From contig JASHOB010000189.1 in NCBI GenBank assembly GCA_030041335.1, positions 1-43,128 on the forward strand: a stretch of DNA of 43,128 bases. The letters are read 5' to 3'. The DNA comes from Alphaproteobacteria bacterium. Lineage in GTDB: Bacteria; Pseudomonadota; Alphaproteobacteria; ATCC43930; CGMCC-115725. The notes under the pieces are model-generated. The model was not told the origin of the DNA and made no database searches. It was given only the letters and a program-made list of their open reading frames with translations. Below, piece after piece: positions 26,718 to 31,507 of this stretch (the stretch's first letter is position 1; every line of letters begins with the position of its first letter). A program made the position numbers and the translations under genes.

Positions 26718-28097
26718 TCATCTCAAAAGCCACTCCGGGTTTGACGTTCCGAGATTTCGAGCAGGCAGTTCCCACCGCAGCGGTGTGCCGCTGACAGCGA
26801 AAGGTGCCGCGATCCGCCGAGCCGGGCCCCAATCCGTCTGCTCGATAGCTGGCATGAGATCAGAGTCTGTTTCGGGAGCAAGCGGCGCATCGGTAACTTG
26901 GCGTTCGTGATCGATCAGCAGTTTGGCAGCACGCGCAAGCGACAAACGCGCTTCTGTTCCGGTGCCATTTTCCAATCGTCTTGTCACCCCGCGGATCGCG
27001 GCGGCGGCCATCAGATAGCCGGTCGCGTGATCGAGAGCCTGAACTGGCAGGGGCAGAGGCTTTGCCTTATGCACCAGCCGCATGCCGCGATCGGCAATCC
27101 CTGTGCTCATCTGCACCAGGCTGTCGAAGCCGCGGCGTCCGGCCCAGGGTCCCGACCAGCCATAGGCGTCGAGACTGACGTCCACTAATCCCGGCGCCAG
27201 CTTGCGGCGCGCCGCGGCGTCGAATCCAAGGCCCTCAAGCGCTCCGGGGCGATAACCATGGATAAGAATATCCGCGCCGGCGAGGAGCCGCTCGAAGACG
27301 GCGCGGTCATGCGGCGTGCGCAGATCGAGGCGCGCGCAACGCTTTCCCAGCGTCACTTCCGGCGCCACGCCGGGTTCGTCCCAATCGGGGGGATCGATGC
27401 GCAGGACATCGGCACCGAAACCCGCTAGAAATCGGCTTGCCACGGGTCCCGCCAATACGCGGGTCAAGTCCAGCACGCGAATTCCAGCCAGCGGGCGTGC
27501 CGGCAACACTCGCCAACTTGGCACTCCTCCCGGTGCCGTCGTAACCCAGCGGACCAGGGGTTCCGCCGCGACCGCGCGACCTTGGGGATGCTCCTGCCAC
27601 TCGCCGACCGAGCGCATCTCTGCCGCGCATCCGCCGGCTTCGACCACGGCGTTTTCAAGAGTAGCCTTCGGCCAGCGGGCGACCGCGCGCGCTATGGCAT
27701 CACGATCGCTGCGCGCTTCGAGAACGCGTTCCACTGCAGCGCGATGATGCGGCGCGTTGGTGTGGAGCCGGATCCAGCCGTCGCGCGTTGGGTAGTCGCC
27801 TGCGATGGGGTCCCATGGCGCCGGCAGCTTCCATCCTATCGGGCGGATCGAGGTCCAGAACCAGATTGATGCTAACCGGCGATCCACTGTGACGGGCGGG
27901 CGGCTGGTACCTGTCTTTCCTGCGAACTCGGCAATCGACAAGGCCGCCGTCGCCACCGCGGCGCTCGCGAAGTCGGAGACTGGAAAAGCGGATGCCAACC
28001 CGCCCGATCCGGCGAAGGCCAATTGGTCTGCAATGTGTGCCTCGCCGCCGACTGCAGACCAGGCAAGTTCCGTAAGGGCACGAGACAGTTCCGTCAT
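26718..28097 (-). CDS. CaiB/BaiF-type CoA-transferase with rearranged domain order
   Basis: A 459-residue protein with CoA-transferase III sequence in an unusual order. Residues ~95-185 look like the C-terminal part of a CaiB/BaiF unit ('DGWIRLHTNAPHHRAAVERVL'). A canonical N-terminal start block, 'LAGIRVLDLTRVLAGPVASRFLAGFGADVLRIDPP', then appears near residue 205. The expected catalytic Asp region reads 'GTEARLSLARAA', with Arg instead of Asp. It could be a relic of a tandem enzyme or a permuted active form. It is divergent from the HTH-citrate synthase gene and shares its 154-base promoter region. Confidence 0.8.
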   Translation of the reverse strand: MTELSRALTELAWSAVGGEAHIADQLAFAGSGGLASAFPVSDFASAAVATAALSIAEFAGKTGTSRPPVTVDRRLASIWFWTSIRPIGWKLPAPWDPIAGDYPTRDGWIRLHTNAPHHRAAVERVLEARSDRDAIARAVARWPKATLENAVVEAGGCAAEMRSVGEWQEHPQGRAVAAEPLVRWVTTAPGGVPSWRVLPARPLAGIRVLDLTRVLAGPVASRFLAGFGADVLRIDPPDWDEPGVAPEVTLGKRCARLDLRTPHDRAVFERLLAGADILIHGYRPGALEGLGFDAAARRKLAPGLVDVSLDAYGWSGPWAGRRGFDSLVQMSTGIADRGMRLVHKAKPLPLPVQALDHATGYLMAAAAIRGVTRRLENGTGTEARLSLARAAKLLIDHERQVTDAPLAPETDSDLMPAIEQTDWGPARRIAAPFAVSGTPLRWELPARNLGTSNPEWLLR

Positions 28098-28209
28098 ATT
28101 GGTCTCTCCACTCCGATCGCGCTCATCCGGTATTGGCCGCGCAAGACTGACGGCGATGTTTAAACCGACAGCGCCGAAAAGCTTTCACTTCAATTTGTCA
28201 GTGCTAGAA

Positions 28210-28238
28210 TTGACGTCAATCTTGATTGAAATCGTCAA
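28210..28238. promoter_or_regulatory. Overlapping palindromes, candidate operator
   Basis: TTGACGTCAA (28210-28219) is a perfect 10-base palindrome. It overlaps TCAATC-TT-GATTGA (28216-28229), and TTGACG is repeated inverted as CGTCAA at 28233-28238. The cluster lies 14 bases before the start of the HTH-citrate synthase, in the divergent promoter region. It is probably a binding site for a dimeric regulator; autoregulation by the HTH domain is an inference. Confidence 0.5.
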
Positions 28239-28251
28239 CATAGGGGGCTGC

Positions 28252-29409
28252 ATGGCGTGGCTGAAGGCGGCGGAGGCGTTGGCGGCCCTCGAGGTCTTGC
28301 CTCAGACCCTTTACGCCAATGTGACCCGGGGACGCATCCGCGCGAAGCCGGACCCGAAGGACCCGCGCAGGAGCCTCTACAACAGCGATGACGTCAACCG
28401 TCTCGCTTCCCGACGACGTGGCCGCCGGCCGGTCGCGACGATCGCTGCCGAGGCGATCGAATGGGGCGATCCCGTGCTCGCTTCAGGAGTCTCGACGGTG
28501 TTCGCTGGCCGCCTGTGGTACCGAGGGCATGATGCGGTCACGCTTGCGGATGCCGCAACCCTCGAGGAAATCGCTGCCCTGATTTGGGAAGCCCGCGACG
28601 TTCGTTTCACACGTGCGCGCAATAGCTCGCCAATGCCCAACGAGCGCAATGCTTCGCCGCTGCGGGCGGCCCTGGACGTGCTTTCGGCGCGCGCCAATGC
28701 GGACCCTCCTGCATTGGGGCGTTCGCGCGGCATTCTCGTAGCAGAAGCGGCGGGTCTTGTTGACGAGTTGGCTTTGGCCATGATTGGTACCCGGAGCCCA
28801 GGAGGAATGGCGTTACACAGGCGTCTCGCCCTGGCCTGGCGAGCCCCCAAAGCCGAAGACGTTCTGCGGCGGGCAATCGTACTGCTCGCTGATCACGAGC
28901 TGAACGCTTCTACGTTCGCTGCTCGTGTCGCAGCCTCAACGGGAGCGCCGCTGGCGGCCGGCCTGTTGGCCGGCGCGGCTACACTGGTCGGTCCCCGTCA
29001 CGGCGGCGCGGCGGCGGGCGTTAATCTTTTGATCGAGGCTGCGCGCCGGAAGGGTGTGGAGAACGCGGTGCGCGATTGGCTGGTTCAGGGAAATTCGCTC
29101 CCTGGGTTCGGCCACCCGCTCTATGCCCAGGGAGATCCGCGAGCCGTCGGTCTACTGGCGCATTTTCGGCCGCGGCCGATATACGCCGAGTTAGGCGCCG
29201 CAGTGGAAGCTCTGACGGGCGAGCAGCCGAACATCGACTTTGCGATTGCAGCCATGGCCGACTCCTGCAAATTGCCTTCGAGCGCGCCGTTGACGATTTT
29301 CGCGCTTGCTCGCTCGGTGGGATGGATCGCCCATATTCTGGAGCAGCTGGCGACGGGACGTCTTATCCGTCCTCGGGCGCGCTATATCGGCCCGCCGCTC
29401 GTGCAATAG
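28252..29409 (+). CDS. Citrate synthase-fold protein with N-terminal helix-turn-helix domain
   Basis: About 385 residues. Residues 1-60 form a MerR/excisionase-like HTH ('WLKAAEALAALEVLPQTLYANVTRGRIRAKPDPKD'). Residues ~70-385 are a citrate synthase fold that keeps the active-site signatures: 'GPRHGGAAAG' (first His), 'LPGFGHPLYAQGD' (second His), 'NIDFAIAAM' (acidic residue) and the C-terminal 'RPRARYIGP'. A DNA-binding domain fused to citrate synthase suggests metabolite-responsive regulation or a regulated condensing enzyme. AGGGGG at 28242-28247 and the family N-terminus support the start; earlier in-frame sequence reads into the neighbouring gene. The divergent CoA-transferase suggests a shared acyl-CoA role. 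Confidence 0.87.
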   Translation: MAWLKAAEALAALEVLPQTLYANVTRGRIRAKPDPKDPRRSLYNSDDVNRLASRRRGRRPVATIAAEAIEWGDPVLASGVSTVFAGRLWYRGHDAVTLADAATLEEIAALIWEARDVRFTRARNSSPMPNERNASPLRAALDVLSARANADPPALGRSRGILVAEAAGLVDELALAMIGTRSPGGMALHRRLALAWRAPKAEDVLRRAIVLLADHELNASTFAARVAASTGAPLAAGLLAGAATLVGPRHGGAAAGVNLLIEAARRKGVENAVRDWLVQGNSLPGFGHPLYAQGDPRAVGLLAHFRPRPIYAELGAAVEALTGEQPNIDFAIAAMADSCKLPSSAPLTIFALARSVGWIAHILEQLATGRLIRPRARYIGPPLVQ

Positions 29410-29565: not shown

Positions 29566-31224
29566 TCATCGCCATTCGTCGATGAGAAAGGTCGGTTTCC
29601 CGTGGTTCGGCGTGCCCGGCCCGCGTCCAAGATAACGGCCACCGAACATCTTGAAGGCGGCCTGCGTGCTGCCGCCGGTAACGACAATGTTGATGTCGTC
29701 CGGTGTGAATAGGCTGACAGGTTCGTCCGGCGCCGCTTTCAAGCGGCTGGCATACGGTTCGATCCCGGCGACAGCGTGGGGATGGATGAGCGTTTGCATC
29801 GCGAAATCGTCCCAGTAATCGCGGGCAGGCAATTTCGCATGCTCGACGCACCACTCGATCAGAGAGCGCTTGGTGAAGCCGAGCTCAGCGAAGCCGTGCG
29901 CGACCAGTGGATCCATGACGATCAGCGGTGGCAAGTATTGCTCCAACGCGGTCAGGCAGCGGACGAACTTGGCCTGCCAAGTTTCGCGCGGCCCATATCC
30001 CGATTGCGTGTACCAGCCGCCGAAGAAAATGCTCACGGTGCTGTCGGTCGCCTTGAAGCCCTCATCGACATGGAACGGCGCCCACGGGCTGCGTTCCTCC
30101 GCCTCTGCAAAACAGAATGTATAAGCGAGCGGATTGCCGAGCGATCCCATATAGGTTTCGCCTGGCACGGAGCCGCCCTGCAAATTCTGACTAAGGAGGC
30201 CGAAGGCGCGGCCGATCGTCGTATTAGCCTGATTGTAGGGTCCAAGCGCACCGGTTCCGTCGTTCATCCCGATCTCTTCACGAATCGGCCCGTTGACGAT
30301 CGCGATGGTCGCAAACGAGGTAGTGCTGCTCGATCGGGCGGTGATGCCGCTCGACGCCATGGCGAGAATGATGGGGAAGTATTCGGGGCGGGCGCCCGCC
30401 ATCACGGCATTGACCGCAACCTTCTCGACGTTGAACTCCCAGAACTCGCGGAACGCGGTCGGGCGCAACCGGCCAACGATCCTGTCTCGCGGCTGCCGGG
30501 TTCCCTTGAGCATCCGCTCGACGCGTTCTTCAGTCGGGAGCACGATTGGCAAAAAATCGGTCCAGCGGTTGCGGATGAAGAGCTCGTGCAGATTCTCCTC
30601 GGTGTCCGGCTCCAACAGGCGCGGCGTCGCGCGCTCAAAAGTTGCGCCCTTGAAATCGTCATCGCTGAGCGGCTCGGTCAGGGCCTCAATGACGCCCTGC
30701 ATGAAGGGGCGCTGAGCGACCGGGTCATTGCCTTCGATGTAGCCGCGCAAGCCCTCGGCGGGAACGCCGACGACGGGCTGCGGCACGAAAACGTTGCGAA
30801 GGGTTGGCCGGCCCTCGGCAAGCGCCGTGGCCTTCGCCAAACGTGCGAACACTTGGCTATGAACGGGGACGGTTGGTACTCCCGCTTCCTCCAGCTTTGA
30901 GGCCAACCCCACGACCGTGGGGCAGCAGGTACTTCATAAACCGACGCCGAGAATGGCGCCCTGCCCCTCTGCGGCGACGGTGGCACGCATCTCGGGATCG
31001 TCGACCCAACTCTCGCGCGGTCGAATGACGCGCGTCGTCACGGACGGCAGATGTACGGCGAACCACTGCCGCATCTCCTCGATGAACACGTCCGTGTTAT
31101 CGAACAAGCAATCGACCAGGAAGATGATCTTGCCGTCGAGGCGGTCGAGCCGGGGCGCGAGGCGTTTGCCGACGACTTTGGGAGGAAACCCGCGGGGATC
31201 ATGAACCGCAATATTCCCGGCCAC
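29566..31224 (-). CDS. Candidate selenoprotein of the UGSC-like family, TGA read as selenocysteine, with long C-terminal extension
   Basis: One frame of 553 codons, broken only by TGA at 30934-30936, gives 552 residues if TGA encodes Sec. The N-terminal part matches the UGSC-family layout: an 'HDPRGFPP' motif, a 'LDGKIIFLVDCLFDNTDVFIEEM' fold, 'TTRVIRPRES', then 'GAILGVGL-U-STCCPTVVGLASKLEEAGVPTV'. Sec and Cys form U-x-x-C, where the family has U-G-S-C. About 440 further residues follow, with no motif known to me. The GTG start at 31222-31224 has AAGGAG at 31231-31236. A SECIS-like hairpin begins 11 bases after the TGA. Otherwise the gene would be two pieces, and the second would lack a good start. 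The role is unknown; a redox enzyme is the best guess. Confidence 0.78.
30907..30922 (-). promoter_or_regulatory. Bacterial SECIS-like hairpin after the in-frame TGA
   Basis: On the coding strand CCCCAC-GGTC-GTGGGG makes a perfect 6-bp stem, with a G-U pair that lengthens it to 7, and a GGTC tetraloop. The loop begins 17 bases after the TGA. The E. coli fdhF SECIS has the same GGUC loop 18 bases after its UGA. This is the position and form needed for SelB binding. Confidence 0.72.
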
Positions 31225-31234
31225 TGCAGCCTCC

Positions 31235-31441
31235 TTAGCGGCCGCGGCGATCGACCACGGCGCCAATCCGCATCATCGCCATTATAGGGTTGAGCAACGT
31301 CATTTCAATCGCGAGGTCGAAGCGCGCAGAATTTGACATGCCGAGGGGCCGAGCGCCCGTGCCGCTCAGCGACCCACCGGCGGCATCCGCGGCGATGCGG
31401 GCGAGCGAATCGTCCTCGAGGTTGAGGTAGCTCCACCTCAT
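31235..31441 (-). CDS. Small hypothetical protein, coupled to the selenoprotein candidate
   Basis: A 68-residue frame, 'MRWSYLNLEDDSLARIAADA' to 'MMRIGAVVDRRGR', ends 10 bases before the GTG of the next gene. Its TAA stop overlaps the AAGGAG ribosome site of that gene, so the two would be translationally coupled. I do not recognise the family. The only cues are the acidic and Gly/Ser-rich composition and a C-terminal hydrophobic stretch ('IEMTLLNPIMAMMRIGAVV'). The ribosome site is weak. A longer frame upstream is antisense to the amidohydrolase gene and was not used. Confidence 0.5.
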   Translation of the reverse strand: MRWSYLNLEDDSLARIAADAAGGSLSGTGARPLGMSNSARFDLAIEMTLLNPIMAMMRIGAVVDRRGR

Positions 31442-31507
31442 CGCTTTGTAGATAATGATATATAAGCTCGAAGACCGAGAGGAACGTATCATTGAGGGGA
31501 TTTGCGG

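Follow-up and report, generated by a model that had tools for sequence, protein, structure and literature searches.

Our analyses indicate that an apparent pair of broken genes in an alphaproteobacterial contig is very probably one intact gene, the internal stop codon of which is read as selenocysteine (Sec). The gene (29566..31224, minus strand) lies within a stretch of 43,128 nucleotides that was analysed as a whole, hereafter the window, and encodes a protein of 552 residues with one Sec codon, in which a UGSC domain is fused to a C-terminal domain and for which full-length homologues exist. Ordinary calling of open reading frames (ORFs) breaks this protein into two false genes. The best explanation of the results as a whole, to which we assign a probability of roughly 0.6, is a selenoprotein related to PrdB and GrdB, the selenoproteins B of D-proline reductase and of glycine, sarcosine and betaine reductase, that would serve as an NAD(P)H-fed selenol reductase in the catabolism of small acids. 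The results presented here bear on the identity of residue 97 as Sec, on the kinship and on the neighbourhood of the gene; the chemistry and the substrate are inferred. Together, the kinship with PrdB/GrdB, a recurrent neighbour resembling thioredoxin reductase (TrxR) and a context of carboxylate uptake would turn an uncharacterised selenoprotein into a testable enzyme class, for which natural cysteine (Cys) versions are built-in controls; this functional proposal was not found in those parts of the literature that were searched.

Reading frame and decoding of codon 97

The frame runs from a GTG at 31224 to a TGA stop codon at 29568-29566 and is open except for one TGA (30934..30936), which corresponds to residue 97 of 552; this putative Sec (U97) and C100 complete a U-x-x-C pair, and the flanking residues read GVGL-U-STCC. 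Judged from the sequence, a strong ribosome-binding site, AAGGAGG (31230..31236), precedes the GTG by 5 nt. When scanned without recoding, the same region yields an ORF of 110 amino acids (30934-31266), starting at an upstream TTG, and another of 448 amino acids (29566-30912). The frame, the ribosome site, the residues around the TGA and the split into two ORFs had all been described in an earlier note on this DNA, and each proved correct. Non-synonymous change is constrained alike on both sides of the TGA: in comparison with four relatives, pN/pS is 0.25-0.35 for residues 1-96, 0.32-0.56 for residues 98-185 and 0.26-0.35 for residues 186-552, ratios that are rough because pS is high (0.48-0.75). 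An AlphaFold2 model of the 552-residue fusion has a pLDDT of 91.7 and a pTM of 0.91.

Relatives were gathered by scanning a sequence collection, and the best 80 of at least 562 confirmed relatives were fetched as loci. These best 80 supplied 85 rows of a codon-97 alignment, completed by the window to 86 rows; four loci (L056, L062, L078 and L085) contribute several rows each, near copies are present (the 52 Sec rows contain 48 distinct stretches), and L130, which stops short of codon 97, lies outside the alignment. Codon 97 is TGA in 52 rows, TGC in 32, TGT in two and nothing else in any of the 86. Scattered stops, which the earlier note had named as a sign against recoding, were looked for in the Sec rows and none was found within the aligned part, where the TGA at codon 97 is the sole in-frame stop in every TGA row; elsewhere, stops are seen at 381 in L132 and at 185 and 189 in L121. 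Since all 86 rows carry either TGA or Cys at codon 97, and since the TGA rows have no other in-frame stop, the TGA is there by more than chance. Across the 58 full-length rows drawn from the best 80 of at least 562 relatives, columns 97 and 100 invariably hold Cys or Sec, and no other column does. On a maximum-likelihood tree of these 58 rows (33 Sec, 25 Cys) the Sec/Cys label switches twice, the Cys rows forming two groups and the Sec rows coming from several phyla; the tree is midpoint-rooted for drawing only and so gives no direction to the changes.

Within the same family of genomes, TGA also occupies codon 97 in G002 (apparently on the same contig as L066) and G027, as it does in a paralogue on contig C245 of the window's own genome, while another paralogue on contig C138 and the homologue in G038 have Cys. 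The earlier note had held that homologues with neither residue would count against Sec: none occurs in the 86 rows from the window and the best 80 of at least 562 relatives, but two were found at about 30% identity, both homologous to the whole fusion, one on contig C55 of the same genome (L024:6043-7620, with GPAAT) and one on a Sporomusa plasmid (L160:5320-7044, with GDMGTS). These two show that the domain pair can persist after the loss of both residues, and so without this redox centre. The C55 copy lies near a gene resembling isocitrate lyase or PEP mutase (named by eye), and a homologue on the Acidovorax plasmid p2-T1 is also near an annotated gene of this kind.

A bacterial-type SECIS hairpin is predicted at 30906..30923 (minus strand), with the loop GGUC at 30913-30916, that is, nucleotides 21-24 counted from the T of the TGA; a GGUC loop at about such a distance from the UGA is also a feature of Escherichia coli fdhF. 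Among the rows from the best 80 of at least 562 relatives, positions 20-25 read CGGTCG (CGGUCG in the RNA) in all 52 Sec rows, whereas the Cys rows keep G21 in 11 of 34, C24 in 21 and G25 in 12. Stem pairs 17-28, 18-27 and 20-25 are each formed in 52/52 Sec rows, against 5, 18 and 12 respectively of the 34 Cys rows, and pair 18-27 covaries in the Sec rows (G-C in 46, C-G in five, A-T in one). Pair 19-26 behaves differently in the same set: it is formed in 46/52 Sec rows (A-T 21, G-C 24, G-T 1, with an A-C mismatch in six) and is commoner in the Cys rows, 32/34, where it is always G-C. Four or more stem pairs follow one another without a break in 46/52 Sec rows and 1/34 Cys rows from these best 80. 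RNAfold places the hairpin in the best fold of many, not all, Sec rows, and an Rfam scan of the SECIS region matched no family. Each of the 52 Sec rows has an A immediately 3' of the recoded TGA (window codon 30931-30933); we also observed that Ser98 is AGC or AGT in each of these rows and TCN in 5/34 Cys rows.

The genome to which the window belongs (5.17 Mb in 262 contigs, listed as 100% complete with 3.65% contamination) encodes a complete Sec machinery. Contig C233 holds tRNA-Sec (76 bits), SelA (567) and SelD (422) together, and contig C164 holds SelB (428), all above curated cut-offs; two more tRNA-Sec matches, at 52 and 49 bits narrowly above the cut-off of 47, are probably other tRNAs. 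Among the genomes of the best 80 of at least 562 relatives, selA exceeds its cut-off in 45 of 46 with the Sec form, the exception (L119) having only a selA fragment, and in 7 of 30 with Cys only. The remaining 23 of these 30 lack selA above the cut-off, which agrees with the expectation in the earlier note that Cys would replace TGA in relatives without selenium machinery. The count leaves out L125 and excludes from the Cys-only class those Cys genomes that also have a Sec form (L095/L067, L113/L057); the L062 genome, with both forms, was counted as Sec, and L106 and L129, Cys genomes in which pieces of selA lie at the ends of contigs, were counted as without selA. By eye, selB-like genes are seen in nine of the best 80 loci, all of them Sec, and selA-like genes in five, four of them Sec; SelB and SelA domains were found among the scanned neighbour proteins. 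With selA, selB, selC and selD present and Cys in place of TGA in relatives, the identification as a selenoprotein in the earlier note stands, and on sequence evidence we have very little doubt that residue 97 is selenocysteine.

If the UGA were instead a true stop, the region would contain two genes or one decaying gene, and the ORF of 448 amino acids would be started separately. A GTG at 30912 could serve as that start, and the two parts are indeed encoded separately in the C138 paralogue, in L121 and in a second pair in L062; these split relatives, however, break near residue 185, not 97, and have Cys at codon 97. A stop at 97 would also, according to the model, cut the UGSC domain in mid-fold, and the codon is only ever TGA, never TAA or TAG, in the 52 Sec rows from the best 80 of at least 562 relatives. 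With the Sec-specific hairpin, the co-occurrence with selA and the constraint on both sides of the TGA also standing against it, termination at codon 97 is highly improbable. That a changed genetic code reads TGA as tryptophan or another ordinary residue has nothing but the open frame in its favour and can be given practically no weight, as TGA-free relatives always have Cys (34/34 rows from these best 80), TGA also serves as the stop codon of the fusion gene, and a full Sec system is present in the genome.

Several further Sec fusions were observed. The paralogue on C245 (L022:1-12000) is a second Sec fusion of the same genome, 68% identical to that of the window and cut by the contig end. 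Two Actinomadura loci (L078, L085) each hold three Sec-fusion copies within 12 kb. A Sec fusion in a record titled as a Klebsiella pneumoniae metagenome-assembled genome (L068), a label that looks doubtful, is 64% identical to the window's. On the Neorhizobium galegae plasmid pNgVX (L135, 7962-9630) the fusion is annotated as two overlapping hypothetical proteins, and since it also matches in two pieces it is probably frameshifted in the record.

The UGSC domain and the C-terminal domain

Residues 7-160 (30745..31206, minus strand) match the UGSC domain of Pfam, PF24696, with 74.1 bits against a gathering cut-off of 25. The earlier note had proposed a UGSC-type domain with a variant U-S-T-C motif, which this match bears out at the level of the domain; against the narrower NCBIfam equivalog model, UGSC_fam (NF041046), the score is 56.3 bits, below the cut-off of 125. 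The domain order agrees with that of the UGSC family (PF24696; NF041046), as does, counted by eye, the spacing from U-x-x-C to a strand of the form LE-x-x-G-[IV]-P, and hhalign aligns the UGSC part of the fusion with canonical UGSC proteins of related genomes at 99.6%. The window protein differs from the latter in its motif (USTC in place of UGSC), in its fusion to a domain of about 370 residues and in its SECIS loop, which is CGGUCG; of 10 canonical UGSC Sec genes examined in related genomes, eight have CGUGCUGUACG instead. It is almost certainly a true selenoprotein and a USTC-type variant within the known UGSC kind, not a new class. The eight canonical genes with CGUGCUGUACG (L031, L033, L035, L042, L045, L046, L048 and L049) have the hairpin at a similar place, and PrdB-like genes (L140-L159) have hairpins with CCGUG-type loops at a similar distance after the TGA; given these differing loops, SelB of such genomes may need to read several loop types.

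Beyond its own family, the UGSC domain is in all likelihood a distant relative of the Sec domain of PrdB/GrdB-like proteins (PF07355, GRDB), as far as can be read from sequence profiles. The comparison was made with 20 PF07355 matches from alphaproteobacteria, small proteins whose motif contains Sec in 16 and Cys in four. Against these, hhalign gave 95.8% (P 7.9e-9) with Sec aligned on Sec, and still 91.8% (P 7.5e-7) when the CxxC columns were masked in both profiles; a reversed control gave 0.6%, 20 column shuffles gave at most 1.7%, and canonical UGSC alone reached 90.7%. In both groups U-x-x-C is followed by a strand resembling LE-x-x-G-I-P-T. On these results and their controls we consider it very likely that UGSC and PrdB/GrdB belong to a single superfamily. 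PF07355 itself is unmatched in P0001, L092 and two canonical UGSC proteins (hmmscan, up to E 10), so that the case for kinship comes from aligning profiles with those of 20 small PrdB-like proteins and not with true glycine or proline reductases. A PrdB-like protein with U-P-L-C is encoded on contig C18 of the window's own genome (L141, near 1402-1995; PF07355, 49 bits), which apparently brings the selenoprotein genes of that genome to three or more. Neither the PrdB/GrdB kinship nor a TrxR-like neighbour was found in those parts of the literature searched on UGSC and on glycine and thioredoxin reductases.

In the AlphaFold2 model the Sec lies between a strand (89-95) and a helix (100-113). 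Strands alternate with helices in the UGSC part, the PDB entries ranked highest have flavodoxin-like or Rossmann-like folds, and thioredoxin is absent among the 50 PDB rows listed in either structure search. The model looks flavodoxin- or Rossmann-like, which leaves the thioredoxin-like fold given as likely for UGSC in the consulted part of PMC2398784 (2008) conceivable but unsupported. The closest of the listed structures to the UGSC part, 8s7v_H (Z 10.6 at an rmsd of 4.4 across 135 residues), was set aside, a designed protein tying with it at Z 10.5, and a profile search of PDB sequences with A2 returned nothing up to E 1.

The C-terminal domain (residues 186-552; 29569..30669, minus strand) comprises about 370 residues, fewer than the extension of about 440 residues in the earlier note, a figure close to the full length of the ORF downstream of the TGA. 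Neither Pfam nor NCBIfam yields a match for the domain. Modelled alone it gives a confident structure (pLDDT 88.6), with no significant PDB fold (Foldseek best E 8e-3, probability 0.23; VIA-align best Z 5.6), which does not imply that its fold is new; rows for fumarate hydratase and cyclic amide hydrolases recur among the PDB matches and are too weak to use. In the 58 full-length rows from the best 80 of at least 562 relatives the domain is highly conserved and contains no conserved Cys. It has no likeness to the PrdB-like proteins (hhalign 0.4%). In GrdE and PrdA a Cys is needed for pyruvoyl formation, and the absence of a conserved one would set the domain apart from these proteins too.

The earlier note had taken the domain to be unknown from the UGSC family, which is not supported. 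Sequence comparison indicates that it is not a private add-on of the window gene and is elsewhere a neighbour of UGSC: it is encoded as a separate gene beside a UGSC gene in eight other genomes of the same family and on contig C138 of the own genome, and it stands before or after the UGSC gene on several plasmids, those of Roseovarius and Variovorax included (the UGSC gene of Variovorax SRS16 being named by its CGSC motif only). A UGSC/Unknown_1 fusion, in which a UGSC selenoprotein is likewise joined to one conserved domain of unassigned function, is moreover reported in the Global Ocean Sampling selenoproteome (PMC2398784), and the C-terminal domain is perhaps this Unknown_1. The consulted part of that paper states that fused domains carry, as a rule, conserved Cys, of which the window's domain has none, and does not mention a reductase partner or PrdB/GrdB kinship for UGSC/Unknown_1. 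Overall, the interpretation in the earlier note is partly supported.

Gene neighbourhood and a candidate reductase

In the window the fusion gene appears isolated. Divergent from it, an ORF resembling an amidohydrolase (by eye, without an NCBIfam match) starts at 31502 and is followed by a FAD monooxygenase-like ORF, and a citrate-synthase-like ORF (27805-29409) is convergent with the fusion gene; no TrxR-like, selA/selB-like, TctC, malonyl-CoA decarboxylase or aconitase-X-like gene adjoins this copy. By tblastn, the distance between the fusion and a TrxR-like gene is at most 400 nt in 36 of the best 80 of at least 562 loci (16 Sec, 20 others) but not in the other 44, some of which are cut by contig ends. 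Among the called TrxR-like copies from these best 80, 29 of 30 have CxxC, the remaining one being a piece of 205 amino acids, and 28 of 29 tested are on the fusion's strand. The own genome shows this link only at the C245 paralogue, directly before which lies a TrxR-like gene. Its product shares CxxC and GxGxxG with thioredoxin reductase (TIGR01292) and scores 275 bits against the equivalog cut-off of 343, so that it is perhaps a dedicated paralogue. On the Roseovarius plasmid trxB adjoins the split UGSC and C-terminal-domain genes, and on the Variovorax plasmid it belongs to the same cluster, with two genes between.

Other neighbours were scanned as proteins of more than 150 amino acids from a simple gene caller (81 of 130 for Sec loci, 74 of 98 for Cys loci), TrxR-like and fusion genes having been removed beforehand and many near copies left out. 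Within these samples of the best 80 of at least 562 loci, TctC accounts for 8/74 proteins at Cys loci and 4/81 at Sec loci, and the Cys loci further contain malonyl-CoA decarboxylase (6/74) and AMP-binding enzymes (5/74). Aconitase-X-like genes are present in 4 of the 80 loci (L074, L099, L107, L111) and on the Sporomusa plasmid; one Variovorax plasmid has genes of ornithine-cyclodeaminase, DHDPS and semialdehyde-dehydrogenase type, and none of these three types occurs in the 80 loci, so that a link to hydroxyproline stays a lead. With neighbours so varied, one common substrate is not established.

From these elements the following mechanism may be proposed. UGA 97 is very probably decoded as Sec through the hairpin directly 3' of it, acting as SECIS, and the complete Sec machinery of the genome. 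The selenolate of U97 would be the nucleophile and would react with an electrophilic substrate bound to the C-terminal domain, and C100 would resolve the adduct or a mixed Se-S state. The NAD(P)H-dependent TrxR-like flavoprotein, whose gene often adjoins the fusion, would then re-reduce U97-C100; a reductase fed in this way is, on balance, probable. The substrate might be a small carboxylic acid imported via TctC, ABC or TRAP receptors, which might be reduced or reductively cleaved to a product that enters central metabolism, at several rhizobial Cys-type loci perhaps by way of malonyl-CoA synthetase and decarboxylase; we regard a carboxylate as a tentative suggestion. PrdB and GrdB act on amino acids, TrxR genes occur in grd operons, and the proposed mechanism parallels that of glycine and proline reductases. 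Judging by record titles the fusion is spread over at least Pseudomonadota, Actinomycetota, Chloroflexota, Myxococcota, Rokubacteria and Latescibacterota, and its host genera include Neorhizobium, Ramlibacter and Actinomadura, which are aerobes. It is conceivable, and no firmer than the choice of substrate, that UGSC, its C-terminal partner and the TrxR-like flavoprotein together do with tolerance of oxygen what glycine and proline reductases do in anaerobes, as a selenol enzyme that reduces or reductively cleaves a small carboxylic acid in carbon catabolism and in which Sec and Cys have been exchanged at least twice.

The roles of the two domains could also be exchanged, the C-terminal domain being the catalyst, for instance a carboxylate lyase or hydrolase, and UGSC a redox switch or regulatory subunit. 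Most distant matches do come from the C-terminal domain, which is often encoded apart from UGSC and whose highest-ranking PDB matches, to fumarate hydratase and cyclic amide hydrolases, would suit such a catalyst without being significant. The C55 and Sporomusa homologues keep the domain pair though the redox motif is gone, and together with the varied neighbours they would fit a regulatory or non-redox role. A switch, however, would scarcely be expected to keep Sec or Cys without exception at position 97 (86 rows) and at position 100 (58 rows) across several phyla, or to come with a signal for Sec insertion and a reductase encoded next to it, and we consider this arrangement unlikely. Slightly less room is left for U97-C100 as a general thiol oxidoreductase or peroxidase, reduced by the TrxR-like protein and without a specific catabolic substrate. 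The U-x-x-C motif and the recurrent TrxR-like neighbour are what such an enzyme would show, but the flavodoxin- or Rossmann-like model, with no thioredoxin in the 50 rows of either PDB list, and the profile kinship with PrdB/GrdB-like proteins point elsewhere, and neither the size and conservation of the C-terminal domain nor the neighbours with roles in transport or catabolism would be accounted for.

Two features of individual loci may be added to the preferred reading of a selenol reductase in small-acid catabolism as observations in their own right. On C245, genes resembling a multi-subunit formate dehydrogenase (named by eye) lie a few kb from the Sec fusion. In six Caldilineaceae loci (L084, L086, L087, L088, L101 and L102) the Sec fusion stands among genes that are conserved from one of these records to another, some of them phytanoyl-CoA dioxygenase-like.
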